Made by a program: the position numbers and the translations under genes. 33,789 nucleotides of DNA, from NCBI RefSeq assembly GCF_004348545.1, contig NZ_SMKL01000069.1:1-33789 (forward strand), written 5' to 3'. The stretch is from Jiangella ureilytica (GTDB taxonomy: Bacteria > Actinomycetota > Actinomycetes > Jiangellales > Jiangellaceae). The notes under the pieces were generated by a model. It saw only the letters and a program-made list of their open reading frames with translations, made no database searches and had not been told where the DNA came from. Below are positions 17,411-31,308 of this stretch, piece by piece. Numbering within the stretch: the first letter of the stretch is position 1; each line of letters opens with the position of its first letter.

Positions 17411-18622
17411 TCACAGCTGCTCAGCCGGCGACGGCGCCGTATAGACGTCCAGCAGCCGTCGCTCGGCATCGGCGAGGGCGAGCCGCACAGCGCCGAGTGC
17501 GACCGCGTCGTCGCCGAGCTGGGAGAGTTCCAGCCGGGGCGTCACGAGCGCACGCCGACCCAGATGCCGCCGCATGCTCGCCAGCACCGCGTCGCCGGCC
17601 AGGGCGACGCTGCCACCGATGATGACCAGCTCCGGGTCGATCGCGGACACAAAGGAGGCGAGCCCTCGCGACAGCCGAGCGCAGGCCTCGTCCACCGCCT
17701 GAAGGGCCCGGGCATCGCCGTCGGCCGCCGCGGTGAGGACGGCGGCCGCGTCTGCGCCTTCGTCGAAGCCGAGGCTGCGTGCTCGGCGCAGGATCCATGC
17801 GGTTCCGGCCGCGGACTCGAGCGGGCCGAGCCCGTCGGGCTGGACACCTTGCGGTTCCTCCTCCAGTTCGAGGAAGCCGATCTCTCCGGCCGCTCCGTGA
17901 GCGCCGCGGTGCAACTGCCCGTGCACCAGCACGGCCGCACCGACCCGGGCACCCCATTGCACGAGGATCAGGTTCTCGGCAGCACTGCCGACGCCGTTCC
18001 ATCGTTCGGCCATCACGGCGAGGTTGACGTCGTTCTCGACCTGGACGGGACACTCGACGCTGCGCCGGAACAGCCCGCCCAACTCCAGCGAGTTCCATCC
18101 GGGTATCGACGGTGCCTGCACGACGGCGCCCCTCTGCTCGTCCACGATGCCGGGCGTTCCGATGCCTACCGCCGCGAGCGCGGACAACGGGACGGGTACC
18201 GCGTCGAGCGCCTGGCTCATCGTCGACGTCACCTGCTCGAGCAGCTGGGCATGGGTGGTCGCGTCGGTCACGTCACGACGGACGCGAGACGCGACGGTTC
18301 CGCTGAGATCGGCGACAGCGCAGTAGATCTTGTGCGGTCCCACGTCGATCCCCAGCACATATCTCGCGTCGGCGCGGAAACGCAGCACCCGGGCCGGCCG
18401 GCCCATGCGAGGCAGGTCGACCTCGGGCGCCTCGGTCTCCTCGACCCACCCGTCGGCCATGAGCGTCGACACCGCGGCACTGACCGTGGGACGGGACAGG
18501 CCGGTCGCTCGGATGAGGTCCGTCACGCGTGCCGTGCCCGCGGCACGGATGGCGGAGAGCACAGCGGCGCAGTTCATGAGCCGCAGCACCTGGGGCCCGC
18601 TGCCATGTCCGATTTGAGTCAC
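17411..18622 (-). CDS. ROK family transcriptional regulator
   Basis: 403 residues. An N-terminal winged helix (about 17-65: AAVLSAIRAAGTARVTDLIR, ATGLSRPTVSAAVSTLMADG) precedes a ROK/sugar-kinase-like actin fold (VLGIDVGPHKIYCAVADLSG, AVGIGTPGIVDEQRGAV, ENDVNLAVMAERW, ELVIIGGSVALAG). The phosphate loop GIDVGPHK departs from the kinase GGTK, and the CxCGxxGC zinc motif after GEIGF is absent, so it is a regulator, not a kinase, and an atypical one. The GTG at 18622 follows AAGGGG. It is divergent from the secreted sugar dehydrogenase operon, with a ROK-like dyad between, and probably represses it until a sugar or keto-sugar binds (inference). Confidence 0.9.
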   Translation of the reverse strand: MTQIGHGSGPQVLRLMNCAAVLSAIRAAGTARVTDLIRATGLSRPTVSAAVSTLMADGWVEETEAPEVDLPRMGRPARVLRFRADARYVLGIDVGPHKIYCAVADLSGTVASRVRRDVTDATTHAQLLEQVTSTMSQALDAVPVPLSALAAVGIGTPGIVDEQRGAVVQAPSIPGWNSLELGGLFRRSVECPVQVENDVNLAVMAERWNGVGSAAENLILVQWGARVGAAVLVHGQLHRGAHGAAGEIGFLELEEEPQGVQPDGLGPLESAAGTAWILRRARSLGFDEGADAAAVLTAAADGDARALQAVDEACARLSRGLASFVSAIDPELVIIGGSVALAGDAVLASMRRHLGRRALVTPRLELSQLGDDAVALGAVRLALADAERRLLDVYTAPSPAEQL

Positions 18623-18671
18623 TAGTACCCCTTGACACAGACGATCCCGCACCAACATAGTGATCGTCAAC

Positions 18672-18700
18672 ATAGTTAGGGAGGTTTCCTTACTAAGTAT
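18672..18700. promoter_or_regulatory. ROK-type operator
   Basis: An AT-rich dyad in otherwise very GC-rich DNA: left arm ATAGTTAGGGAGG, centre TTT, right arm CCTTACTAAGTAT, matching at 10 of 13 positions. Dyads with TTAG and CTAA ends around a TTT core recall actinobacterial ROK/NagC-like repressor sites. It lies 50 bp before the ROK start and 220 bp before the secreted protein start. Direct repeats CAACATAGT at about 18653 and 18668 overlap its left edge. Confidence 0.6.
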
Positions 18701-18920: not shown

Positions 18921-21900
18921 ATGTTGGGCAAGCGATCCGCATCGTTACTGTCGTTCCTGGCGCTGCTGATGTCCGTACTGGTCAGCGCGCCGGCCACCGC
19001 GCAGATCGTCGAGGCTCCGGCCGACACCGCGAGCACGTTCGCGGAGCTCTCCGCGGCCGACCAGTTCGAGAAGGTGCTGGTGGCACCGGGCATCTCCCAG
19101 CCGATGTCCATGGACATCGCCGACGACGGCCGCGTCTACATGACCAGCCGCGACGGCGTCATCCGCGTGTATCACCCGGACACCGGGCAGGTGAGCGTGG
19201 TCGCGGAGCTGGACGTGTTCGACGACCACCCGCTGCCGCCGAACCCCGACTTCCAGGGGTCGAAGAACCAGGAGGGCGGCCTGCTGGGCCTGGCCCTCGA
19301 CCCGGACTTCGCGACGAACGGCTGGGTGTACGTGTACTACACCACCCGCGCCGAGAACGCGCACTACCTCTCCCGGTTCGCCGTGGAGGACGACCAGCTC
19401 GACGTCGCGTCCGAGATCGTCATGCTGAAGGTGCCGTACAACAAGACGCACTGCTGCCACGTCGCCGGGGACGTCGACTTCGACTCCGCCGGCAACCTCT
19501 ACCTGAGCACCGGTGACGAGTCGCCGCCGGACCTCAACGAGCAGTACTCGCCGCTCGACAGCCGCCCGACGCACTGGTACAACGACGACCGCCGGACGTC
19601 GGGCAACACGAACGACCTGCGCGGCAAGGTCCTGCGGATCACCCCGCAGCCCGACGGCACGTACACGATCCCGGACGGCAACCTCTTCACCGGCGACGAG
19701 GAGGGCGGCGGCAAGACCCGGCCGGAGATCTTCGCGATGGGGTTCCGCAACCCGTTCCGCATCTCACTGGACCCCGCGACCGACCGGCTGCACATCGGCA
19801 ACTACGGGCCGGACCGGCTGGGCGAGTGGACCGAGCGCGGGCCCTGGGGCTTCGACCAGTACATGGCCACGTCCGAGGCGGCCAACTTCGGCTACCCGTT
19901 CTGCATCGGGAACAACTACCCGTACCGCCCATGGGACTACGCGACCAACCAGCCGCTCGGCGACTTCTACGATTGCCAGAACGGCCCGGTCAACGACTCA
20001 CCGAACAACACCGGTCTCGACCAGCTCCCACCGGTGACGCCGGCGACGATCTACTACCCGCGCAGCTGGGCGAACTGGCCGGAGACCTGGGTCGGCTGGC
20101 CGGCGCAGGAGCTCAACCCGATCCCCGAGCCGTTCCTGAACATGGGCTCCGGCGCGGGCGGGCCGATGTCGGGCCCGGTGTACCGCTACGACGCGAGCCT
20201 GCAGTCCGACACCAAGTTCCCCGAGCACTATGACGGACGCTGGTTCCTGCTCGACTTCCACCGCGGTCACGTGAAGACCGTCGAGCTGGACGAGAACGAG
20301 GACGTCGTCGCCATCGACGACTTCATGCCCGGCCAGACCTGGTCCGGCCTGATGGACGGCGAGTTCGGCCCGGACGGCTCGCTGTATGTGCTGGAGGGCG
20401 GCTCGTTCGGGAACAGCCCGAACGCCGGCCTGTACCGGGTCGACCACGTCAGCGGCAGCGAGCCCGGTACCTGTGAGACCGACGAGTTCGCCGGCACCGA
20501 GCTCGACCGCGAGCGCTGGTCGACGATCGTGCGCGAGAACCCGGAGGGGTACCGGCAGGTCGACGGCGCCCTCGAGATCGACATGCTGCAGGGCGACATG
20601 ATCAGCAACCACCTGAGCGGCAACATCAACACCACCGCGCAGAACCTGATCATGGCCCCGGTGCCGGACGGGAACTGGGTCGCGGAGGCCACCGTCGAGC
20701 TGCCGGCCGGTGTCACCAACCACGACCAGGCCGGGTTCGTCATCTACGAGGACGACCAGAACTTCACCAAGGCGGCCTACTTCCCGCCCTACGGCGGCGC
20801 GGCCGACGGCCGGTTCGAGTACCTGTACCACGAGAACGGTGAGATCCGCTTCCAAGGCGGCGTCGACAATCCGACGGTCGCCGCCGCGCCGCTGACCCTG
20901 CAGCTGCGGCTCACCGGCGACGGCGAGAACGTGCGCGCCGCCTATTCGCGCGACGGCGAGACCTGGATCAACGTGGGGCGGCCGGCGCCGATCTCGAACT
21001 ACGAGGCGCCCACGTTCGGCTTCTTCGCCGCCCACGGCCCGGCGGAGATCGAGAACCCGCTGACCGCGTCCTTCTCCGACTTCTCGCTGTGCGTCCCGGA
21101 GGAGCCCGCGTGCGCCGCGCCGACGGTGGACGACGGGTACCGCCCGCTGTGGGACGGTGCCACGCTGACCGGCTGGAACCAGGCCGGTCCGGGTGGGTTC
21201 GCGGTCGTCCCGGACGGGGAGCGGCCCGGCTCGTGCGCCCTGGAGTCGGTCGGCGATCCGGCCGGCCTGGGGATGCTGTGGCACGAGGAGGAGTTCGAGT
21301 CCTACCGGCTGCACGTCGACTTCAAGGCCGTGGCCGAGGACGACAACTCCGGCGTGTTCATCGGGTTCCCCGACCCCGGCGACGACCCGTGGGTCGCGGT
21401 GCGCCAGGGCTACGAGATCCAGATCGACGACACCGGCGGCTCCCCTGGTGCCGCGGACAGCTCCAAGACCGGTTCGATCTACACCTTCCAGGCGCCGACG
21501 TCGTTCCCGACGGTCGCCGGTGAATGGAACGAGATGGAGATCGAGGTCGACGACCCGATGATCCGGGTGTGGATCAACGACGTCCTGGTCAACGAGTTCC
21601 ACAACCACGACCCCGCACGCGACCTCGCCTCCGGTTTCGTCGGGATCCAGAACAACCGCGTCTCCGACAACGTGTTCTTCCGCGACATCTGGATCAAGGA
21701 GCTCGGCGACACCCAGTGCCCCGAGCCGGAGACGCCGCCGGCGGGCTTCGTGCCGCTGTACGACGGCCGGACGCTGGACGGCTGGACCATGGCCGGTCCC
21801 GGCGGTTTCGAGATCGACGAGTGCGGGCTGCTCGAGCCGTACGGCGGCATGGGCCTGCTCTGGTACGACCGGCAGACGTTTGCCGACTACGTGATGCGGG

Positions 21901-23462
21901 TCGACTTCCGGGTCCAGGCGCCGACGGACAACTCCGGCGTGTTCCTCCGCTTCCCCGACCCGCAGGGTGACGCCGGCCGGCCGGTGAACGAGGGCCACGA
22001 GGTGCAGATCTACGACGCCACCGACAACCCGATGACCCGAACCGGCGCGATCTACAATTTCGCACCGGCCGAGCCACTGGCCACGAACCCGATCGGTGAG
22101 TGGAACACGATGGAGATCGAGGTGATCGGCCAGGAGTACCGCGTCACCCTCAACGATGTCGAGGTCACCACGTTCACCGGCGACGGCAGCCGTCCCCTGG
22201 AGGGCTACGTCGGCCTGCAGAACCACTCGTCGGGCCAGGCGGCCGGTGAGAGCGTGGAGTTCCGCAACGTCTGGATCAAGGAGATCGAGGACGAGCTGAC
22301 GGTCGACGCCTCGGTGTCGCCGGCCGAGCCCGACGGCGCCGGCGGCTGGTACGTCTCACCGGTCACCCTCACGCTCGAGTCCAACGACCCGGACGCGGAA
22401 CTGCTCTGGCGGCCGCGGACGGACGAGACCCAGTGGCGCACGTGGACCGAGCCGGTGGTGTTCGACGCCGACGGCGTCTACAACATCGACTACAAGGCGG
22501 TGCTGCCCGGCGACGGCGGCGGGGAGCCGATCGAGAAGGAGATCCTCGTCGGGTCCGGCGGCTTCGGGTTCAGCGAGACCGACTTCAGCGTGCGGCAGGG
22601 CGACACCGTCAAGTTCCAGTACGTCCCGGGCTATGCGCACGACGTCGTCGTCACCGACGAGAGCGGCGAGGTGCTGGCATCTCGTCCCCTCGGCGACGAC
22701 TGGGAGGACGACCCGTTCTTCTTCGAGGCGACCGAGGTGGGCACGTACTACGTCTACTGCACGCCGCACTCGAACCGGCCCGACCCGGCCGATCCCACGA
22801 CGTGGGCCGGGATGGTGGCGACGTTCGAGGTGACGCCGTCGGGCGGTGAGCCGCCGGTGGAGACCGGGATCGAAGAGATCGAGTTCCTGATCGACGGCAC
22901 GGGCCCGGCCACCGCGGCCGCCCTCGCCGGCGAGCAGGCCGGCGACGTCTACACCGGCCCGGTGACGGTGACCCTGAACGCCCAGGACGCCACCTCCGGT
23001 GTCGCCGAGACGCAGTACCGGCCGGCCGGCGCGGAGGAGCCGGTGGTCTACGCCGAGCCGATCACCGTCACCGAGCCCGGCGACCACGCCGTCGAGTTCC
23101 GGTCGGTGGACGTGGCCGGCAACGTCGAGGACTGGCGGACGGTCGAGTTCACCATCGGCGACGGCGACCCGGGCAACTGTCCGGACCCGGACCCGCGGGA
23201 GACCGTCATGATCGGCGAGGAGGACACCGGCGTGCCCAGCTACGCGCTCGACGACGGGTGCACGGTCAACGACCTCATCCTCGACGAGGACGACTGGAAC
23301 AGTCACGGAGCCTTCATGCGCCATGTCGGCGAGGTGACCGATCGACTGGTGACTGACGGCGTGCTCAGCGGCAGGGAACGAGGCGCCATCGTCCGCACCG
23401 CCGCGCGCAGCGACATCGGCAAACCGGCAGCGTCGAGCCGGATGTCGTGGTCCATGTCCTGA
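18921..23462 (+). CDS. Secreted multidomain sugar dehydrogenase / 3-keto-glycoside hydrolase with cupredoxin
   Basis: 1513 residues from an ATG after GGGAGGAAG. A Sec signal (cleavage after about residue 27) is followed by: a glucose/sorbosone dehydrogenase-type PQQ beta-propeller (about 49-512; HCCHVAGDVDFD, GFRNPFRISLD with the Arg-Asn of the quinone site, LYVLEGGSFGNSPNAGLYRV); a concanavalin/DUF1349-like domain (518-727); two DUF1080 3-keto-disaccharide hydrolase domains (739-929, YEIQIDDTGG; 942-1124, HEVQIYDATDNP, TGAIYNFAP); an Ig/chitobiase-like domain; a cupredoxin (1207-1305) with type-1 copper ligands His1240, Cys1280, His1283, Met1298; a second Ig-like domain; and a FIMAH-like tail (1447-1502). 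It is probably extracellular. I infer that the propeller oxidises a glycoside, the cupredoxin takes the electrons and DUF1080 cleaves the keto-glycoside. First gene of a six-gene sugar operon. Confidence 0.88.
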   Translation: MLGKRSASLLSFLALLMSVLVSAPATAQIVEAPADTASTFAELSAADQFEKVLVAPGISQPMSMDIADDGRVYMTSRDGVIRVYHPDTGQVSVVAELDVFDDHPLPPNPDFQGSKNQEGGLLGLALDPDFATNGWVYVYYTTRAENAHYLSRFAVEDDQLDVASEIVMLKVPYNKTHCCHVAGDVDFDSAGNLYLSTGDESPPDLNEQYSPLDSRPTHWYNDDRRTSGNTNDLRGKVLRITPQPDGTYTIPDGNLFTGDEEGGGKTRPEIFAMGFRNPFRISLDPATDRLHIGNYGPDRLGEWTERGPWGFDQYMATSEAANFGYPFCIGNNYPYRPWDYATNQPLGDFYDCQNGPVNDSPNNTGLDQLPPVTPATIYYPRSWANWPETWVGWPAQELNPIPEPFLNMGSGAGGPMSGPVYRYDASLQSDTKFPEHYDGRWFLLDFHRGHVKTVELDENEDVVAIDDFMPGQTWSGLMDGEFGPDGSLYVLEGGSFGNSPNAGLYRVDHVSGSEPGTCETDEFAGTELDRERWSTIVRENPEGYRQVDGALEIDMLQGDMISNHLSGNINTTAQNLIMAPVPDGNWVAEATVELPAGVTNHDQAGFVIYEDDQNFTKAAYFPPYGGAADGRFEYLYHENGEIRFQGGVDNPTVAAAPLTLQLRLTGDGENVRAAYSRDGETWINVGRPAPISNYEAPTFGFFAAHGPAEIENPLTASFSDFSLCVPEEPACAAPTVDDGYRPLWDGATLTGWNQAGPGGFAVVPDGERPGSCALESVGDPAGLGMLWHEEEFESYRLHVDFKAVAEDDNSGVFIGFPDPGDDPWVAVRQGYEIQIDDTGGSPGAADSSKTGSIYTFQAPTSFPTVAGEWNEMEIEVDDPMIRVWINDVLVNEFHNHDPARDLASGFVGIQNNRVSDNVFFRDIWIKELGDTQCPEPETPPAGFVPLYDGRTLDGWTMAGPGGFEIDECGLLEPYGGMGLLWYDRQTFADYVMRVDFRVQAPTDNSGVFLRFPDPQGDAGRPVNEGHEVQIYDATDNPMTRTGAIYNFAPAEPLATNPIGEWNTMEIEVIGQEYRVTLNDVEVTTFTGDGSRPLEGYVGLQNHSSGQAAGESVEFRNVWIKEIEDELTVDASVSPAEPDGAGGWYVSPVTLTLESNDPDAELLWRPRTDETQWRTWTEPVVFDADGVYNIDYKAVLPGDGGGEPIEKEILVGSGGFGFSETDFSVRQGDTVKFQYVPGYAHDVVVTDESGEVLASRPLGDDWEDDPFFFEATEVGTYYVYCTPHSNRPDPADPTTWAGMVATFEVTPSGGEPPVETGIEEIEFLIDGTGPATAAALAGEQAGDVYTGPVTVTLNAQDATSGVAETQYRPAGAEEPVVYAEPITVTEPGDHAVEFRSVDVAGNVEDWRTVEFTIGDGDPGNCPDPDPRETVMIGEEDTGVPSYALDDGCTVNDLILDEDDWNSHGAFMRHVGEVTDRLVTDGVLSGRERGAIVRTAARSDIGKPAASSRMSWSMS

Positions 23463-23556: not shown

Positions 23557-24876
23557 ATGTCGAACCGACTCGGCCGGCTGGCACCGGCCGTGGGTGCAGT
23601 CCTGGTGCTCGCCGCCTGCGGCGAGAGTGCCGATCCACGGGAGAACACCGACGCCGCCGGCGACGAGGACGGCGGCAGCAGCGGGGGCCAGGTGACGCTG
23701 GTCATGGAGAGCTGGCGCAACGACGACCTCGCCATCTGGGAGGACGTCATCCTGCCCGCCTTCCACGAACAGCACCCGGACATCCGGGTGACCTTCCAGC
23801 CGACGGCGCCGGACGAGTACGACGCCGCCCTGGACGCCAAGCTCTCCGGCGGCACCGCGGGCGACCTGATCACCTGCCGCCCCTTCGACGTCTCGCTGCG
23901 CCTGCACGAGGATGGCCATCTCGCACCGCTGACCGACCTGGAGGGGATGGAGGCCTTCGGCGACGTCGCCCGGGCCGCGTGGTCGACCGACGACGGCTCG
24001 GAAACGTTCTGCGTTCCGATGGCGTCGGTGATCCACGGCTTCCTCTACAACAAGGCGGCGTTCGACGAGCTGGGCCTCACCCCGCCGGAGACGGAGGAGC
24101 AGTTCCACGAGCTGCTCGCCGCGATCGCCGCCGACGGCACGTACGCCCCGTTGGTCATGGGCACCGCCGACCAGTGGGAGGCGGCGACCATGGGCCTGCA
24201 GAACATCGGCCCGAACTACTGGAACGGCGAGGAGGGCAGGCAGGCGCTCATCGACGGCGCCGAGCGGTTCGACGACGAGCAGTACGTCGCCGTCTTCACC
24301 GAGCTCGCCTCGTGGGCGGAGTACCTGCCCAGCGGCTACGAGTCGATGACCTACCCCGACGCGCAGAACATGTTCACCCTCGGCCGCGGGGCGATCTTCC
24401 CCGCCGGTTCCTGGGAGATCGCGCTCTTCAACGAGCAGGCGGACTTCGAGATGGGCGCGTTCGCCCCGCCGCTGCCAGAGGGCCAGGACACCTGCTACAT
24501 CAGCGACCACACCGACATCGGCATCGGCATGAACGCGGCCACCGAGCATCCGGAGGAGGTCAGGACGTTCCTGGAATGGACCACTTCGGCCGAGTTCGCC
24601 GATCTGTACGCCAACGCGCTGCCGGGGTTCTTCCCGATGTCCGACCACGACGTCGAGGTCGACGACCCGCTGGCGCAGGAGTTCCTCAGCTGGCGCGACG
24701 ACTGCGAGTCGACCATCCGCAACTCGTACCAGATCCTCTCGCGCGGTGAGCCCAACCTCGAGAACCAGCTGTGGGACCTCAGCGCGCAGGTGCTCAACGG
24801 CACGGTCCAGCCGGCCGATGCCGCCGCCCAGGCCCAGGCGGGCCTGGAGCGCTGGTACGAGCCGCAGCAGCAGTAG
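23557..24876 (+). CDS. Sugar ABC transporter substrate-binding lipoprotein
   Basis: 439 residues. A lipoprotein signal ends in LAAC with the lipidated Cys21, followed by an acidic glycine/serine linker. The mature part is a family 1 (MalE/UgpB-like) solute-binding protein: VTLVMESWRNDDLAIWEDVI, FHEQHPDIRVTFQPTAPDEY, GFLYNKAAFDELGLTPPETE, FTLGRGAIFPAGSWEIALF. It binds a sugar or oligosaccharide at the outer membrane face and hands it to the two permeases encoded next. Start ATG follows CGGGAGA. It lies between two strong hairpins, which fits the high expression usual for binding proteins. Placement after the secreted oxidising enzyme suggests that its ligand is a product of that enzyme (inference). 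Confidence 0.93.
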   Translation: MSNRLGRLAPAVGAVLVLAACGESADPRENTDAAGDEDGGSSGGQVTLVMESWRNDDLAIWEDVILPAFHEQHPDIRVTFQPTAPDEYDAALDAKLSGGTAGDLITCRPFDVSLRLHEDGHLAPLTDLEGMEAFGDVARAAWSTDDGSETFCVPMASVIHGFLYNKAAFDELGLTPPETEEQFHELLAAIAADGTYAPLVMGTADQWEAATMGLQNIGPNYWNGEEGRQALIDGAERFDDEQYVAVFTELASWAEYLPSGYESMTYPDAQNMFTLGRGAIFPAGSWEIALFNEQADFEMGAFAPPLPEGQDTCYISDHTDIGIGMNAATEHPEEVRTFLEWTTSAEFADLYANALPGFFPMSDHDVEVDDPLAQEFLSWRDDCESTIRNSYQILSRGEPNLENQLWDLSAQVLNGTVQPADAAAQAQAGLERWYEPQQQ

Positions 24877-24917: not shown

Positions 24918-24937
24918 ACTTCCGCGAAGGAGAACGC

Positions 24938-25909
24938 ATGACCCGACCGCGGACCTCGGCGCCGCCCAAGGGGCTCGATGTCGAGGACACGACGGCGAGC
25001 GGCCGGCCCCCGGCTACGCGGCCCGCCGCCCGGCCGCGTCGCCGGTTCCGCACCCACCTGGTGGTCTTCATCGCGCCGGCGGCGGCGATCTACACGATCT
25101 TCATGGTCTACCCGTTGCTCGACTCGTTGCGGCTCAGCCTGTACGCCCCGGTCGACGGCGTCCAGACGTTCGTCGGGCTGGACAACTTCGTCCATCTGCT
25201 CTCCGACGACCTGCTCTCCGACGCGTTCTGGAACGCGGTGTGGAACAACCTGGTGTTCTTCGCCGTGCACTTCTTCGTCCAGAACCCGATCGGCCTGCTG
25301 CTCGCGGCGCTGCTGGCCGCGCCCACGTTGCGGGGCCGGTCGGCCTACCGCACGCTGCTGTTCATCCCGACGACGCTGAGCGTGGTCATCGTCGGGTTCA
25401 TCTGGCAGCTGATCATCAGCCCGGTGTGGGGGTTCGTCGAGACCCCGCTGCTCGGGCAGTCGAGCACCGCCTTGGTGACGCTCGCGCTGATGTCGGTGTG
25501 GCAGTACATCGGCATCCCGATGATCCTCTTCTACGCCGTCCTCATCAGCATCCCGGACGAGCTCATCGAGGCGGCGACGGTCGACGGCGCCGGCGCCTGG
25601 TCGACGTTCTGGCGGGTCAAGTTTCCGCTGATCCTGCCCACCGTCGGCATCGTCTCGGTCATCACCTACGTCGCGAACATGAACGCCTTCGACCTGATCT
25701 ACACCGTCAAGGGCGCCCTGGCCGGTCCGGACTTCGCCTCGGACATCATGGGGACGCTGTTCTTCCGCACCTTCTTCGGCTTCCAGCTCCAGCAGGGCTC
25801 CAGCACCATGGGCGCCACGGTCGCCACCATGATGTTCCTGCTCATCCTGGCCGGTGTGCTGGCGTACTTCTACGGCTGGCAGCGGCGCATCCAGAGCTAC
25901 CAACTGTGA
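24938..25909 (+). CDS. Sugar ABC transporter permease (MalF/UgpA-like)
   Basis: 323 residues from ATG 24938 after GAAGGAGAA. A basic N-terminal tail (about 40 residues, rich in Arg/Pro) precedes six predicted transmembrane helices, starting with VVFIAPAAAIYTIFMVYPLL. The cytoplasmic EAA loop that docks with the ATPase is present as EAATVDGAGAWSTFWRVKFP followed by LILP. This is the carbohydrate-uptake-1 family. No ATPase gene lies in the operon, as is usual in actinomycetes, where a shared MsiK-type ATPase serves many importers. The neighbouring second permease starts 11 bases after its stop. Confidence 0.93.
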   Translation: MTRPRTSAPPKGLDVEDTTASGRPPATRPAARPRRRFRTHLVVFIAPAAAIYTIFMVYPLLDSLRLSLYAPVDGVQTFVGLDNFVHLLSDDLLSDAFWNAVWNNLVFFAVHFFVQNPIGLLLAALLAAPTLRGRSAYRTLLFIPTTLSVVIVGFIWQLIISPVWGFVETPLLGQSSTALVTLALMSVWQYIGIPMILFYAVLISIPDELIEAATVDGAGAWSTFWRVKFPLILPTVGIVSVITYVANMNAFDLIYTVKGALAGPDFASDIMGTLFFRTFFGFQLQQGSSTMGATVATMMFLLILAGVLAYFYGWQRRIQSYQL

Positions 25910-25919
25910 GGAGCCCAGA

Positions 25920-26804
25920 GTGAGCGCTGTGAGCACCCCGGTGCGCGGTGTCGCGCGGCCGCCGCGGGCGGGCCGGACCTGGCGGGCACGGGCCGGTGTG
26001 GCCGTCCCGCACCTCATCCTGATCGCCTACGTCGTCGTGGCGTGCGGGCCGATCGCGCTGATCGTCATGAACGCGTTCAAGTCCCGCCAGGCGATCTTCG
26101 AGGAGCCGTTCGCCTTCCCGACGCCGTCGACGTTGGACCTCGGCGGGTTCGAGACGGTCTTCACCAGGGCCCGGTTCGAGCTGTATTTCCTCAACAGCTT
26201 CATCGTGACCGTCAGCACAGTGGTCCTGGTGCTGCTGCTCGGGTCGATGGCGGCATTCGCCCTGGCCGAGTACCGGTTCGCCGGTATCACCGTCGTGTCG
26301 CTGTACATGGCGGTGGGAATCATGATCCCGATCCGGCTCGGCACGGTCGGCATCCTCGACCTCATGGTCCGGCTGAACCTGGTGAACTCGCTGGCCGGGC
26401 TGGTGCTGGTGTACACCGCGATGGGGCTGCCGCTGGCCGTGTTCGTGCTGACCGCGTTCTTCAAACAGGTGCCGGGCGACCTGAAGGACGCTGCCCGCAT
26501 CGATGGCGCCAGCGAGTACCGGGTGTACGCGCTGGCCCTGCCGCTGGTGCGGCCGGGGCTGGCGGCCATCGGCGTGTACACCATGCTGCCGATCTGGAAC
26601 GACCTGTGGTTCCCGCTGATCCTCACACCCGGCGAGGGGGTCCGCACGGTGACGCTGGGCACCCAGCTGTTCCTCGGGCAGTTCGTCAGCGACTGGAACG
26701 CTGTGCTCGCGGTGCTGACGCTGGCCGCGCTGCCGATGCTGGCCCTGTTCATCATCTTCTCGCGGCAGTTCGTGCGCGGACTGACGTCAGGAGCGATCAA
26801 GTGA
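25920..26804 (+). CDS. Sugar ABC transporter permease (MalG/UgpE-like)
   Basis: 294 residues from a GTG at 25920, preceded by GAGGAG; it begins 10 bases after the first permease. Six predicted transmembrane helices, an EAA-type loop (DAARIDGASEYRVYALALPL then VRPGL) and the C-terminal SRQFVRGLTSGAIK typical of MalG-like subunits. It forms the heterodimeric channel with the preceding permease. Its stop overlaps the start of the next gene (GTGA), so import and the first intracellular oxidoreductase are translationally coupled. Confidence 0.94.
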   Translation: MSAVSTPVRGVARPPRAGRTWRARAGVAVPHLILIAYVVVACGPIALIVMNAFKSRQAIFEEPFAFPTPSTLDLGGFETVFTRARFELYFLNSFIVTVSTVVLVLLLGSMAAFALAEYRFAGITVVSLYMAVGIMIPIRLGTVGILDLMVRLNLVNSLAGLVLVYTAMGLPLAVFVLTAFFKQVPGDLKDAARIDGASEYRVYALALPLVRPGLAAIGVYTMLPIWNDLWFPLILTPGEGVRTVTLGTQLFLGQFVSDWNAVLAVLTLAALPMLALFIIFSRQFVRGLTSGAIK

Positions 26805-27805
26805 GCCCGACGCGCATCGGCATCGTCGGGGCCGGCTTCATGGGGTCGGTCCACGCGGCGGCGTGGGCGGACTGCCCGGACGCCCGGCTGACCGCGGTCG
26901 TCGGCGGGTCCGGCGGCCCGCCCGCGCGGCTGGCGGCGGAGCACGGCATGCGGGTCTGTGCGAGCCTGGACGAGCTGCTCGACCAGGTCGACGTCGTCGA
27001 CGTCTGCGTCCCTACCGACCTGCATCACGAGGTCACGGTCCGCGCGGCCCGGGCCGGACGAGCCGTCGTCTGCGAGAAGCCGCTGGCCCGCACGCCGGGT
27101 GAGGCAGCGGACATGATCGCGGTGTGCCGGGAGGCCGGCGTGCCTCTGCTGCCCGCACACGTCGTGCGGTTCTTCCCCGAGTACGCGGCGGCGAAGGCGG
27201 CGGTCGACGCCGGTGCGATCGGTGAACCGGCGGTGCTCCGGCTGACCCGGGCGTCGTTCCAGCCGGCGAAGCCCGCGGGCAACTGGTACCTCGACGAGGC
27301 GCGCTCGGGCGGACTGCATGTCGACCTGATGGTGCACGACCTCGACTACGCCCGCTGGATCGCCGGCGAGGTCGTGGGTGTGCACGCGCGCAGCCTCCGG
27401 GCGGCCCGTCCGGACGCCGGCACCGACCACGTCCTTGCCATCCTGCGGCACGCACCGGGCGCGATCAGCCATGTCGAGGCGTCGTGGGCGCAGCCGCCGC
27501 CGACGTTTCGCACCCGGGTGGAGATCGCCGGGACCGGTGGCCTGCTCGACTTCGACTCCGACGGCAGCGCGCCGGTGCGCCCGAACCTGCGGGCCGGCGC
27601 CGCGGCGGGGCCGATGCCGCTGCCGTCCAGCCCGCTCGCCGTGTCGCCCTACGCGATCCAGCTGCGGCACTTCCTCGACGTCGTCCGCGGTGCCGCGGCG
27701 CCGATCGTGACGGCCGACGACGCCCTTGCCGCCGTGCGCATCGCGACGGCGATCGGACGGTCGATCGCCACCGGCCGGCCCGCTGACGTGGAGGTGGCCG
27801 CATGA
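26801..27805 (+). CDS. Gfo/Idh/MocA family oxidoreductase 1
   Basis: 334 residues from GTG 26801. The Rossmann motif GIVGAGFMG (residues 7-15; GxGxxG) is followed by CEKPLART (Glu-Lys-Pro at 92-94, carrying the catalytic-site lysine) and GGLHVDLMVHDLDYARWI, the usual metal-free active-site helix with His-x3-Asp. Members oxidise or reduce sugar ring carbons with NAD(P), including the C3 position of glycosides. It overlaps the permease stop by four bases and the next gene by four bases. In this operon I infer reduction of an imported 3-keto-sugar to the plain sugar, or the reverse. Confidence 0.92.
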   Translation: MSPTRIGIVGAGFMGSVHAAAWADCPDARLTAVVGGSGGPPARLAAEHGMRVCASLDELLDQVDVVDVCVPTDLHHEVTVRAARAGRAVVCEKPLARTPGEAADMIAVCREAGVPLLPAHVVRFFPEYAAAKAAVDAGAIGEPAVLRLTRASFQPAKPAGNWYLDEARSGGLHVDLMVHDLDYARWIAGEVVGVHARSLRAARPDAGTDHVLAILRHAPGAISHVEASWAQPPPTFRTRVEIAGTGGLLDFDSDGSAPVRPNLRAGAAAGPMPLPSSPLAVSPYAIQLRHFLDVVRGAAAPIVTADDALAAVRIATAIGRSIATGRPADVEVAA

Positions 27806-28791
27806 GGGTCGGGTTCTTGTCCACCGCACACGTGCACGTCGACGCGTACGTCGGGAACGTCCGGGCCGCCGGGGCCGAGGCGGCCGGCGTCACCGACGAC
27901 GACGCCGAGCGCGGCACCCGGTGGGCCGCCGCGCACGCGGTGCCGTGGTTCTCCTCGCCGGAGCACCTGCTGGACGCGGGACTCGACGCCGTCATCGTCG
28001 GGTCGGAGACAGTGCATCACCGCCGCCTGGTGGAGCTGGCGGCCGCGGCCGGTGTGGCCGTCCTCTGCGAGAAGCCGCTCGCCACCAACGACGACGACGC
28101 GCGCGCCATCGTCGACGTGTGCGCCGCCGCGGGCGTGCCGCTGATGACCGCGTTCCCCATGCGGTTCAGCCCGCCGCTGCGTGAGACCGCGGCTCTGCTC
28201 GCCGACGGCGCGCTCGGCGAGGTCTACGCGTGCACCGGCACGAACCAGAGCGTGCTGCCGACGAGGCACGGCGCCTGGTTCGCCGACCCCGTGCTGGCCG
28301 GCGGGGGTGCCGTCATGGACCACGTGGTGCACCTGGCCGACGTCCTGCGCTGGTACCTGGGCCACGACCCGGTCGAGGTGTACGCGGCCACCAACCGGGT
28401 CCTGCACCGCGACACCGTCGCCGTCGAGACCGGCGGACTGGTCATGCTCGGCTACCCCGACGGCGTCTTCGCGACGATCGATTCCAGCTGGAGCCGCCCG
28501 GAGGGGTATCCCACCTGGGGCGGGCTGACCCTCGAGCTGGTCGGCGAGCACGGCACGATCGCCGTCGACGCCTTCAGCCAGCACCTGACCGTGCATCGCG
28601 CGCCGCCGGACCGGCTGGACTGGCCGACGTGGGGGTCCGATGCCAACCAAGGCATGATCGAGGAGTTCCTTGACGCGGCCCGGCAGCGGCGCGTGCCGTC
28701 CGTCACCGGTGAGGACGGACTGGCGGCGACCCGGGTGGCGCTGGCGGCGTACCGCTCGGCCGCCAGTGGCGAACCGGTGGCACTGCCCTAG
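27802..28791 (+). CDS. Gfo/Idh/MocA family oxidoreductase 2
   Basis: 329 residues; ATG 27802 overlaps the previous stop (ATGA). The N-terminal strand reads VGFLSTAHVHVDAY in place of the standard GxGxxG loop, a variant seen in some family members. CEKPLATN (Glu-Lys-Pro at 90-92) and GGGAVMDHVVHLADVLRWYL keep the core active site. Low similarity to its neighbour suggests a different substrate or step, perhaps a second ring position or an epimerisation through a keto intermediate. It is the last gene of the operon; no hairpin terminator was seen after it. Confidence 0.9.
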   Translation: MRVGFLSTAHVHVDAYVGNVRAAGAEAAGVTDDDAERGTRWAAAHAVPWFSSPEHLLDAGLDAVIVGSETVHHRRLVELAAAAGVAVLCEKPLATNDDDARAIVDVCAAAGVPLMTAFPMRFSPPLRETAALLADGALGEVYACTGTNQSVLPTRHGAWFADPVLAGGGAVMDHVVHLADVLRWYLGHDPVEVYAATNRVLHRDTVAVETGGLVMLGYPDGVFATIDSSWSRPEGYPTWGGLTLELVGEHGTIAVDAFSQHLTVHRAPPDRLDWPTWGSDANQGMIEEFLDAARQRRVPSVTGEDGLAATRVALAAYRSAASGEPVALP

Positions 28792-29531: not shown

Positions 29532-30965
29532 TCAGCGCCTCGGCACGACGACGGCGTGCGTGGCCCGGGCCGCGGCGGTGCCGTGGCACAGGAATGTCTG
29601 GCCGGTGAACACGTCGGTCGTGGAGCACCCTTCGTTGTCGGTGAGGGTGACCCGGGCATGGTGCACTCCCGAGGTCCGGTACACGTGCGTCGGCGTCGGT
29701 CCGCCGTCGGCCAGCCTGGTGCCGTCGCCGAAGTCCCAGTCGTAGCGGGCCACCGTCCCGTCCGGGTCGGCCCCGCCGGTGGCGTCGAACCTGGTCACCG
29801 TCCCGGCCCGGCCAGCGGTCGCGGTGAGCGCCGCGACCGGGCCCTGGTTCGGCCGGATCGCCAGCGACTGCGACGCCGGGCCTCGCCCACCGGTCCGCAC
29901 CGGGGAACCCGGAGTGGGGACCAGCCCGTCGGAGGTCACCCGGTACGCAGACAGCTCGCTGGAGTCGAAGTTGCTCACGAACAGGAACCGTCCGTCCGGG
30001 CTGGTGGTGATGCCGACCGGCCCAAGTCCGGCCTTGACCGGCTCTCCGAGCGGGCGCAACCGGCCGTTCTGCCGCACGTGGAAGGCGGTGACCCCGCCGG
30101 TTCCGCTGTCGGGGCGGTCCTGGCCCGGGCTGGCGACGAACAGCCGCCGGCCGTCAGGGGAGATCGCAATGCCCTCGGAGTGGTCGGCGACGGCGTAGGG
30201 CGACCCGGGCACGGCAGTGAGCCGGCCATCGTGGCGGATTCGGAAGCCGTAGACCTCGTCGGTGCTGATAGTGGCGATGTATAGGAACCGGCCGTCCGGC
30301 GTGATCCCCATACCCGTCGCCGCACCGCCGGTCTCCGCCACGACGCCGCGCGACCGCAACTCGCCGTCGGTGCCGATCGCGAAGCGGACGAGGACGTTCG
30401 TCGGCTCGGTCAACGGGATGCCGTGGCCGACGTAGAGCGAGTGGCCGTCCGGAGAGACGACCAAGCCGCGTGGGTTGGCGAACCCGGTCGCGACCGGGTT
30501 CCCGCGGCGGGCCAGCGTGCCGTCGGCGGCGACGTCGAAGACAGTGATGGTGTCGGAGCCGACGTTGCTCACGTACAGCGACCGCCCGTCGGGTGTCATA
30601 GCGATGCCGAAGGTGAAGCTGCCCCCCGTGGGCACCGGCGGCGCCAGTAACGACAGCTCGCCGTTCTCGCCCACCGCGTAGGCGGCGACGCGCCCCGAGT
30701 CCCGGTACGCCACGTAGGCGACGTCGCCGTCAGGGGCGAACACGACACTGTTGGAGCCGTCTCGCCCGCCGGTGGGTTCGAGAATTCCGGTGGCATCGGG
30801 GGTCCCGTCCGCGCCGACGACGAACGACGCGACATCGCTACTGCCGCCGTTGCCGACGACCAGGGTGCGGCTCACCGCCGGCTCGTCACCCGACGCCCCG
30901 GGAACGGCACCGGTGGACGTCGCCAAGCCTGCCGCGAGTCCGGCAGCCAACATGCGTACGAACAT
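29532..30965 (-). CDS. Secreted lactonase-type beta-propeller protein with PKD domain
   Basis: 477 residues from ATG 30965, with GGAGG seven bases before it. A signal peptide (MFVRMLAAGLAAGLATSTGA) is followed by a seven-bladed propeller of the lactonase/YncE type with repeated blade motifs of the form SPDGRxLFVxN (TPDGRSLYVSNVGSDTITVF, SPDGHSLYVGHG, TPDGRFLYIATI, SPDGRRLFVASPG, SPDGRFLFVSNF). Residues about 390-455 form a PKD domain (DWDFGDGTRLADGG, THVYRTSGVHHARVTLTDNE). Extracellular lactonases of this fold hydrolyse phosphogluconolactone-like rings, but many members only bind or display; the reaction here is open. Transcribed divergently from the FN3 protein gene. Confidence 0.88.
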   Translation of the reverse strand: MFVRMLAAGLAAGLATSTGAVPGASGDEPAVSRTLVVGNGGSSDVASFVVGADGTPDATGILEPTGGRDGSNSVVFAPDGDVAYVAYRDSGRVAAYAVGENGELSLLAPPVPTGGSFTFGIAMTPDGRSLYVSNVGSDTITVFDVAADGTLARRGNPVATGFANPRGLVVSPDGHSLYVGHGIPLTEPTNVLVRFAIGTDGELRSRGVVAETGGAATGMGITPDGRFLYIATISTDEVYGFRIRHDGRLTAVPGSPYAVADHSEGIAISPDGRRLFVASPGQDRPDSGTGGVTAFHVRQNGRLRPLGEPVKAGLGPVGITTSPDGRFLFVSNFDSSELSAYRVTSDGLVPTPGSPVRTGGRGPASQSLAIRPNQGPVAALTATAGRAGTVTRFDATGGADPDGTVARYDWDFGDGTRLADGGPTPTHVYRTSGVHHARVTLTDNEGCSTTDVFTGQTFLCHGTAAARATHAVVVPRR

Positions 30966-31308
30966 GCTCGATCCTCCAAGGATCGCCGGCGGACCACGTG
31001 AGGGCGGTGCCGTGGTCCGGCGGCGAGAAGAGCCCTCGGCATCGATTACGGGATCAGGCCCGCGATGGACGGAACGTATGACGAAGGTCACACGGGCAAC
31101 CCGTGCATCCATGATCGGCGCGACGGGGTCGCCGCCGGTCCGCGGCTGGCGGCCTACGGCGCATATGCAATCCATCCGAACATCTCACGTCGTATCTCTG
31201 TGGACGCGGTTGCGGCTCGGTCCTACGCCGGGGTACTCAACGCACTGTCGTCAAGTCGTTAGACGCAGCCCGATGGCAAGTGGCAGCCTCATAGGAAAGG
31301 AACACGCC
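30966..31308. other. Divergent intergenic region without gene
   Basis: About 340 bp between two secreted-protein genes. It has lower GC than its neighbours near 31150-31250 and must hold both promoters. A short dyad CACGGG-CAA-CCCGTG lies near 31092. No gene or RNA was recognised. Confidence 0.5.

Follow-up and report, generated by a model that had tools for sequence, protein, structure and literature searches.

A secreted Jiangella polypeptide combining a GSDH-type propeller, two DUF1080 domains and a copper domain: a candidate single-chain oxidative glycosidase

The window analysed here, i.e., the whole of a 33,789-nucleotide stretch (contig NZ_SMKL01000069.1, positions 1 to 33,789) from the soil actinomycete Jiangella ureilytica, contains an open reading frame (ORF; 18921-23462, + strand) that runs from an ATG start through its stop codon and encodes a chain of 1513 residues. 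Domains were assigned with Pfam and NCBIfam, and their borders were adjusted on alignments (Table 1). An earlier, sequence-only reading had described a 1513-residue chain with a signal peptide, a GSDH propeller, two DUF1080 domains and a cupredoxin with four ligands, and profiles and alignments confirmed all of these; the domains that it named were right, but it had overlooked the ConA-like, OmpL47-type and C-terminal parts. An artefact of the reading frame was considered and rejected, since 10 loci match nearly the full length of the chain. We propose that this protein may be a secreted oxidative glycosidase of the oxidation-elimination-hydration kind contained in a single chain, a reading to which we assign a probability of about 0.4.

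Table 1. Positions of genes, domains and other features within the window
Feature	Position	Strand	Residues, family or basis
ROK-family transcriptional regulator (ROK + winged helix)	17411..18673	-	Pfam
Imperfect palindrome TAGTTAGGGAGGTTTCCTTACTA, putative operator	18673..18695	.	start of ROK regulator gene
Signal peptide	18921..19004	+	residues ~1-28; read by eye, N-terminus conserved in alignment
GSDH-type six-bladed propeller	19059..20465	+	residues 47-515
ConA-like domain (DUF1349 / GH43_C2)	20481..21104	+	residues ~521-728; PF07081, PF17851
DUF1080 copy 1	21135..21704	+	residues 739-928; Asn912 at usual His position
DUF1080 copy 2	21744..22286	+	residues 942-1122; His1102 retained
First OmpL47-type domain	22293..22535	+	residues ~1125-1205; NF047446, position inferred
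Plastocyanin-like cupredoxin	22542..22832	+	residues 1208-1304; ligands His1240, Cys1280, His1283, Met1298
Second OmpL47-type domain	22908..23159	+	residues ~1330-1413; best NF047446 stretch 1344-1412
C-terminal module, ~90 residues	23178..23462	+	residues 1420-1513; by eye
ABC transporter solute-binding protein (SBP_bac_1)	23557..24876	+	domain scan
ABC permease 1 (BPD_transp_1)	24938..25909	+	24935-25909 scanned
ABC permease 2 (BPD_transp_1)	25920..26804	+	25923-26804 scanned
Gfo/Idh/MocA oxidoreductase 1	26801..27805	+	domain scan
Gfo/Idh/MocA oxidoreductase 2	27802..28791	+	domain scan

The 10 loci that match nearly the whole chain, with a best segment 73-92% identical, came from Jiangella (the nearest named relatives), Haloactinopolyspora, Georgenia, Saccharomonospora and one actinomycete metagenome-assembled genome. 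One of them (L043), a near duplicate of the Georgenia locus L042, was excluded from the alignments, the ligand count and the survey of neighbours. By BLAST, the ROK regulator, the solute-binding protein, the second permease and both Gfo/Idh/MocA oxidoreductases of the window were found at L037, L038, L040, L041, L044 and L046; the contig of L039 stops past the binding-protein gene. The Georgenia locus and that of Saccharomonospora (L045) have a different ATP-binding cassette (ABC) system, with a Peripla_BP_4 binding protein and an ATPase, and one Gfo/Idh/MocA gene. With L039 and L043 left out, the chain is accompanied by sugar-type uptake and Gfo/Idh/MocA genes in 8/8 loci with room for them. 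As to regulation, the upstream regions of four of the nine other loci scanned (L038, L041, L044 and L046) had, within the top four displayed, a palindrome similar to that in Table 1. The second Gfo/Idh/MocA protein starts with GFLSTAH in place of the glycine-rich nucleotide motif, and its Pfam Rossmann match begins at residue 15. Past the 3' end of the operon, in opposite orientation (29532-31175, -), is a gene that fuses a lactonase-type propeller with a PKD domain.

Both DUF1080 copies matched PF06439 (129.4 and 131.2 bits, cut-off 26.8), and copy 2 carries the histidine of the GLQNH motif in 10/10 orthologous sequences, as do 27 of 28 other DUF1080 rows. In a structural model of residues 730-1301 (predicted template modelling score 0.47 overall), the DUF1080 parts had a predicted local distance difference test score of about 90. 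The best Foldseek match to this model was 4jqt (BT3469), over 474 columns and with a root-mean-square deviation of 10.3 Å over the pair, and phmmer matched two stretches of the 4jqt chain. Further Foldseek matches, to shorter DUF1080 proteins, included 8v31 (AL2) and 8tda (BT2), which are titled 3-keto-2-hydroxy-glucal-hydratase, as well as 8rr2 and 9fbe, which are titled 3-keto-glycoside eliminase/hydratase and have 3-keto sugars bound. The window protein has the DUF1080 fold in common with 8rr2, 9fbe and the AL/BT enzymes of Bacteroides and Alistipes, but chains of the AL/BT type have about 275-281 residues rather than 1513, and their partner oxidoreductases are separate proteins. The literature searched yielded no text on a DUF1080 active site. 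In Saccharomonospora, copy 2 is absent from the chain and is encoded by a divergent adjacent gene (L045:7429-8448, -), a 339-codon frame whose signal sequence and C-terminal module resemble those of the big chain; a gap in the assembly was rejected as the cause of the missing copy, which is a gene of its own.

The propeller scored above the curated cut-off of the GSDH family (PF07995) and has the six-bladed fold. Its cofactor-site residues were placed by profile alignment, not superposition, and the catalytic trio His180, Arg276 and Asn277, corresponding to His144, Arg228 and Asn229 of soluble glucose dehydrogenase (sGDH), was invariant in 35/35 family members. The fold, this trio and a Gly-Pro are shared with Asd/YliI of E. 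coli and sGDH of Acinetobacter. Immediately before the catalytic-His equivalent stands a Cys178-Cys179 pair (19452-19457), which is present in 29/35 family members; in methanol dehydrogenases, a vicinal disulphide lies above pyrroloquinoline quinone (PQQ). If no redox chemistry were involved, the propeller would be a calcium- and His-dependent hydrolase or lactonase acting on the sugar of the DUF1080 domains, and the copper domain would serve storage or protection against oxidants. We regard this as highly improbable, because the Z score of the propeller to quinoprotein dehydrogenases is far higher (about 40 versus 23), and because the invariant residues include the equivalents of Arg228 and Asn229, which in sGDH lie around the PQQ ketones.

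The cupredoxin has the ligand order of the plastocyanin family (His, Cys, His, Met) and matches its profile. All four ligands were kept in 10/10 aligned sequences, and the Cys-x2-His spacing equals that of the plastocyanin compared, while the loop to the Met is longer than in plastocyanin. Within the class the domain occurs in 14 of 296 genomes, i.e., the present one, 10 more of the genus and three from two other genera of the family, and each genome's best match lay in an ORF of 847-1616 residues. A chance match was rejected on the strength of these ligand and genome counts. One of the 12 genomes sampled from the genus lacked the domain, and one of the 14 with it had an extra weak match in a 331-residue ORF. 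In a PF00127 search of the J. ureilytica genome, the window domain was the sole match (E 0.01).

A second copper domain is encoded on another contig (C44), where the gene for P0006, a ThuA-GSDH-PKD-DUF1080 protein, has that for P0008 (L028:184-3960, -) downstream of it in the same orientation. The Pfam score of this cupredoxin was barely above the cut-off (21.5 versus 21.2), but a protein search also recovered it. P0008 looks secreted and consists of one cupredoxin, then about 10 repeats and, near its end, a module of the C-terminal type; it might serve as a copper electron carrier with a long stalk. Among the 16 genomes having such a cupredoxin, 15 have it 265-354 bases from a DUF1080 match of the C44 type, on the same strand, and in the 16th the gene lies near the start of a contig. 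The C44-type ORFs elsewhere encode 1375-1511 residues, the presence of a GSDH propeller in them having been checked in the J. ureilytica genome only. Because it occurs once fused and once adjacent, a blue-copper protein is linked twice to a propeller-DUF1080 chain.

The remaining parts of the chain are less well defined. The ConA-like domain matched PF07081 with 33.0 bits (cut-off 32.4) and PF17851 with 20.3, under its cut-off of 22.7, and model confidence was low across it; NF047446, the OmpL47-type model, matched in two stretches. The ConA-like domain, the OmpL47-type domains and DUF1080 copy 1 probably serve to bind the substrate or hold it in position. By eye, the C-terminal module recurs in P0005, P0006, P0007 and P0008, proteins of differing architecture, and is C-terminal or nearly so in all except P0006; by BLAST, residues 1317-1513 of the window chain matched in L028. 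The module perhaps has a role in sorting, anchoring or docking.

A number of findings weigh against an oxidative glycosidase, several of them at the cofactor site. Of the quinone-site residues, whose absence would have counted against the sequence-only reading, the His/Arg/Asn part stood, but the positions of the sGDH clamp, which binds the PQQ carboxylates, are replaced: Lys377 by His447 (Lys in 0/35 family members), Arg406 by Gly476 (Arg in 6/35) and Arg408 by Met478 (Arg in 0/35). YliI has the Lys and an R-x-R pattern, neither of which the window chain shows, and an ordinary GSDH protein of the same genome retains both clamp arginines, with Arg in place of the Lys. sGDH is a single-domain enzyme with Lys377 and Arg408 that oxidises C1, the position at which, by docking, TrAA12 also acts, whereas the window protein is multidomain with a replaced clamp. 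The NCBIfam model for PQQ-dependent dehydrogenases, TIGR03606, scored 47.6 bits (cut-off 434.55), and the Pfam GSDH model aligned only over positions 2-232 of 332. Because the Lys/Arg/Arg clamp is replaced, binding of PQQ in the known manner, which had been part of the sequence-only reading, is unsupported, and the alignment makes PQQ of the usual type doubtful in this propeller.

The supply of PQQ points in the same direction. No pqqB match was found in 22 genomes of the order, including that of J. ureilytica, with a model whose power on true positives is undemonstrated and which gave weak matches in six of 14 control genomes, none above the cut-off. For pqqE there was a weak match only (58 bits, cut-off 381), of a kind seen in all 14 controls, and pqqC had no match, but no control matched either. 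Among the literature matches listed, none combined a PQQ enzyme with 3-dehydrogenase terms. E. coli does not synthesize PQQ, yet has a PQQ enzyme, a precedent for scavenging. The cofactor may be scavenged PQQ in a remodelled pocket, or something else.

Outside the propeller, the corresponding points are these. DUF1080 copy 1 has Asn (Asn912) in place of the motif His in 10/10 orthologous sequences, whereas copy 2 keeps the family motif; of the two, copy 2 is probably the one with activity. Lectins and CBM66 appeared in the Foldseek list at weaker E-values, and the lectin-like fold of DUF1080 in the model could mean sugar binding only. Model confidence was low across the cupredoxin (block means 25-62), and the copper-domain claim consequently rests on sequence. 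Finally, among the large GSDH proteins of the genome that were scanned for domains, only that of the window, i.e., 1/13, had a copper domain.

In one alternative, DUF1080 is an active eliminase or hydratase and the propeller a redox-inactive relic or sugar platform, comparable to hedgehog-interacting protein, with the 3-keto substrate made elsewhere. We consider it rather unlikely. Invariance of the trio in 35/35 members would not be expected in a relic, and copper carriers recurring inside or beside such chains would be superfluous for a platform without redox activity. Moreover, PF13618, the LacC-type subunit, had no match in the genome, with a positive Caulobacter control, which eliminates one other possible supplier of 3-keto substrate while leaving further ones, such as GMC and other flavin or NAD dehydrogenases, for which no search was made.

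The relatives of the propeller within the genome are numerous. GSDH matches numbered 16, of which 14 lay in ORFs of 711-2173 residues and two in ordinary ones (400 and 539 residues). When 13 of the 14 large proteins were scanned with Pfam (a 1124-residue protein encoded at C168:73204 was left out), ThuA was present in 10, DUF1080 in five and either of the two in 11; ThuA is connected with 3-keto-trehalose. Conversely, six of seven DUF1080 matches were above the cut-off, in five ORFs, and 5/5 of these carry a GSDH propeller. Three of the proteins (P0003, P0004 and P0005; ThuA-GSDH-PKD-CBM6-ConA-DUF1080) share the propeller subfamily, DUF1080 and the ConA-like domain with the window protein but, unlike it, have ThuA, PKD, CBM6 and one DUF1080, and no copper domain. 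Five GSDH-family genes occur inside about 32 kb of contig C168 (59-91 kb; L024, L025); of the four scanned, three encode ThuA and CBM6, in two cases along with DUF1080, and the products look secreted.

LacABC, the lactose-oxidizing system of Caulobacter, is of the flavin and cytochrome type, and the pyranose dehydrogenase of Coprinopsis cinerea (CcPDH) carries a CBM1 module. In Caulobacter, LacABC oxidizes periplasmic lactose and a secreted DUF1080 protein (CCNA_01705) is proposed to split the 3'-ketolactose; genes for a transporter, a sugar reductase and two epimerases lie nearby (PMC9007349). The window would resemble this in pairing extracytoplasmic 3-oxidation with a secreted DUF1080 part, next to a transporter and a putative reductase. 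The Caulobacter proteins are separate and LacABC is membrane-bound (PMC9007349), whereas in the window a GSDH propeller and a cupredoxin are within one chain. In a gut bacterium and Agrobacterium, C3 oxidation, beta-elimination, formation of 3-keto-glucose and reduction are described as the work of separate enzymes, of which some are putative (PMC10628242). CcPDH (AA8-AA12), like the window protein, is secreted and unites a GSDH-fold dehydrogenase with a domain for electron transfer in one chain, but this domain contains haem b instead of copper, and DUF1080 is absent (PMC6881789). Its PQQ contacts include Arg273, Arg621 and His560, Arg621 being conserved in bacterial enzymes (PMC6881789). Arg621 would correspond to sGDH Arg406, the residue lost in the window. 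A plain AA12 enzyme, a class marked by an Arg621/His560 PQQ site and the AA12 sequence family, was considered and dropped. CcPDH is a precedent for a working secreted enzyme in which an electron carrier is joined to a GSDH-fold dehydrogenase. In the literature searched, judged by titles and abstract openings and with few subscription journals covered, no fusion of the present kind was described.

CcPDH also makes a case for a C1 aldose dehydrogenase, whose electrons would pass outward via the copper domain, as from AA8-AA12 to lytic polysaccharide monooxygenases (LPMOs), with the DUF1080 and ConA-like domains serving only as anchors to polysaccharide. The GSDH-fold relatives considered here act at C1, and CcPDH, with the same plan of dehydrogenase and fused carrier, is reported to drive LPMOs; DUF1080 folds like a lectin, and the conserved His is missing from copy 1. 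Nevertheless we think this distinctly unlikely, since copy 2 retains the family motif and its occurrence in Saccharomonospora as a separate, secreted-looking protein is more in keeping with an enzyme than with an anchor. In addition, all strong DUF1080 domains in the genome are linked to a propeller, and the frequency of ThuA in the scanned propeller proteins (10/13) is a further point against C1 oxidation.

For the oxidative glycosidase that we favour, the following sequence of events is conceivable. Outside the cell, the propeller would oxidize one hydroxyl group of a glycoside, C3 being the position that would suit the partner domains. The blue-copper domain of the chain would pass the electrons singly to an acceptor, as its intact ligands and recurrent pairing suggest, and DUF1080 copy 2, to judge from its solved relatives, would eliminate and/or hydrate the 3-keto-glycoside, yielding a 3-keto-sugar together with the aglycone or the second sugar. 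Gene order and the Caulobacter and Agrobacterium pathways suggest that the product would be imported by the adjoining ABC transporter and reduced inside to an ordinary sugar by the Gfo/Idh/MocA enzymes. The earlier proposal that a single chain first oxidizes and then cleaves is partly supported, by the fusions, the gene neighbours and the titles of the solved DUF1080 structures. A more specific form, in which a propeller with a rebuilt pocket (clamp lost, trio kept, Cys-Cys facing the catalytic His) oxidizes C3 and the chain's own copper and DUF1080 domains finish the cleavage, would constitute a third type of 3-dehydrogenase alongside the flavin and NAD enzymes, common to a large family of actinobacterial ThuA/DUF1080 propellers; we rate it as somewhat unlikely.

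Cleavage of glycosides by oxidation and elimination is a recently recognized alternative to ordinary glycosidases, and to our knowledge the dehydrogenases known to take part in it are separate proteins that depend on flavin or NAD. The window protein would unite steps of pathways of the Caulobacter/Agrobacterium type with the fused-carrier plan of CcPDH. If the proposal is true, a dehydrogenase that is quinoprotein-like or has a new cofactor would join this chemistry, together with a copper exit, in one secreted molecule, and a likely function would be given to the large actinobacterial group of ThuA/GSDH/DUF1080 proteins, of which the 14 large GSDH genes of this genome alone are an example.
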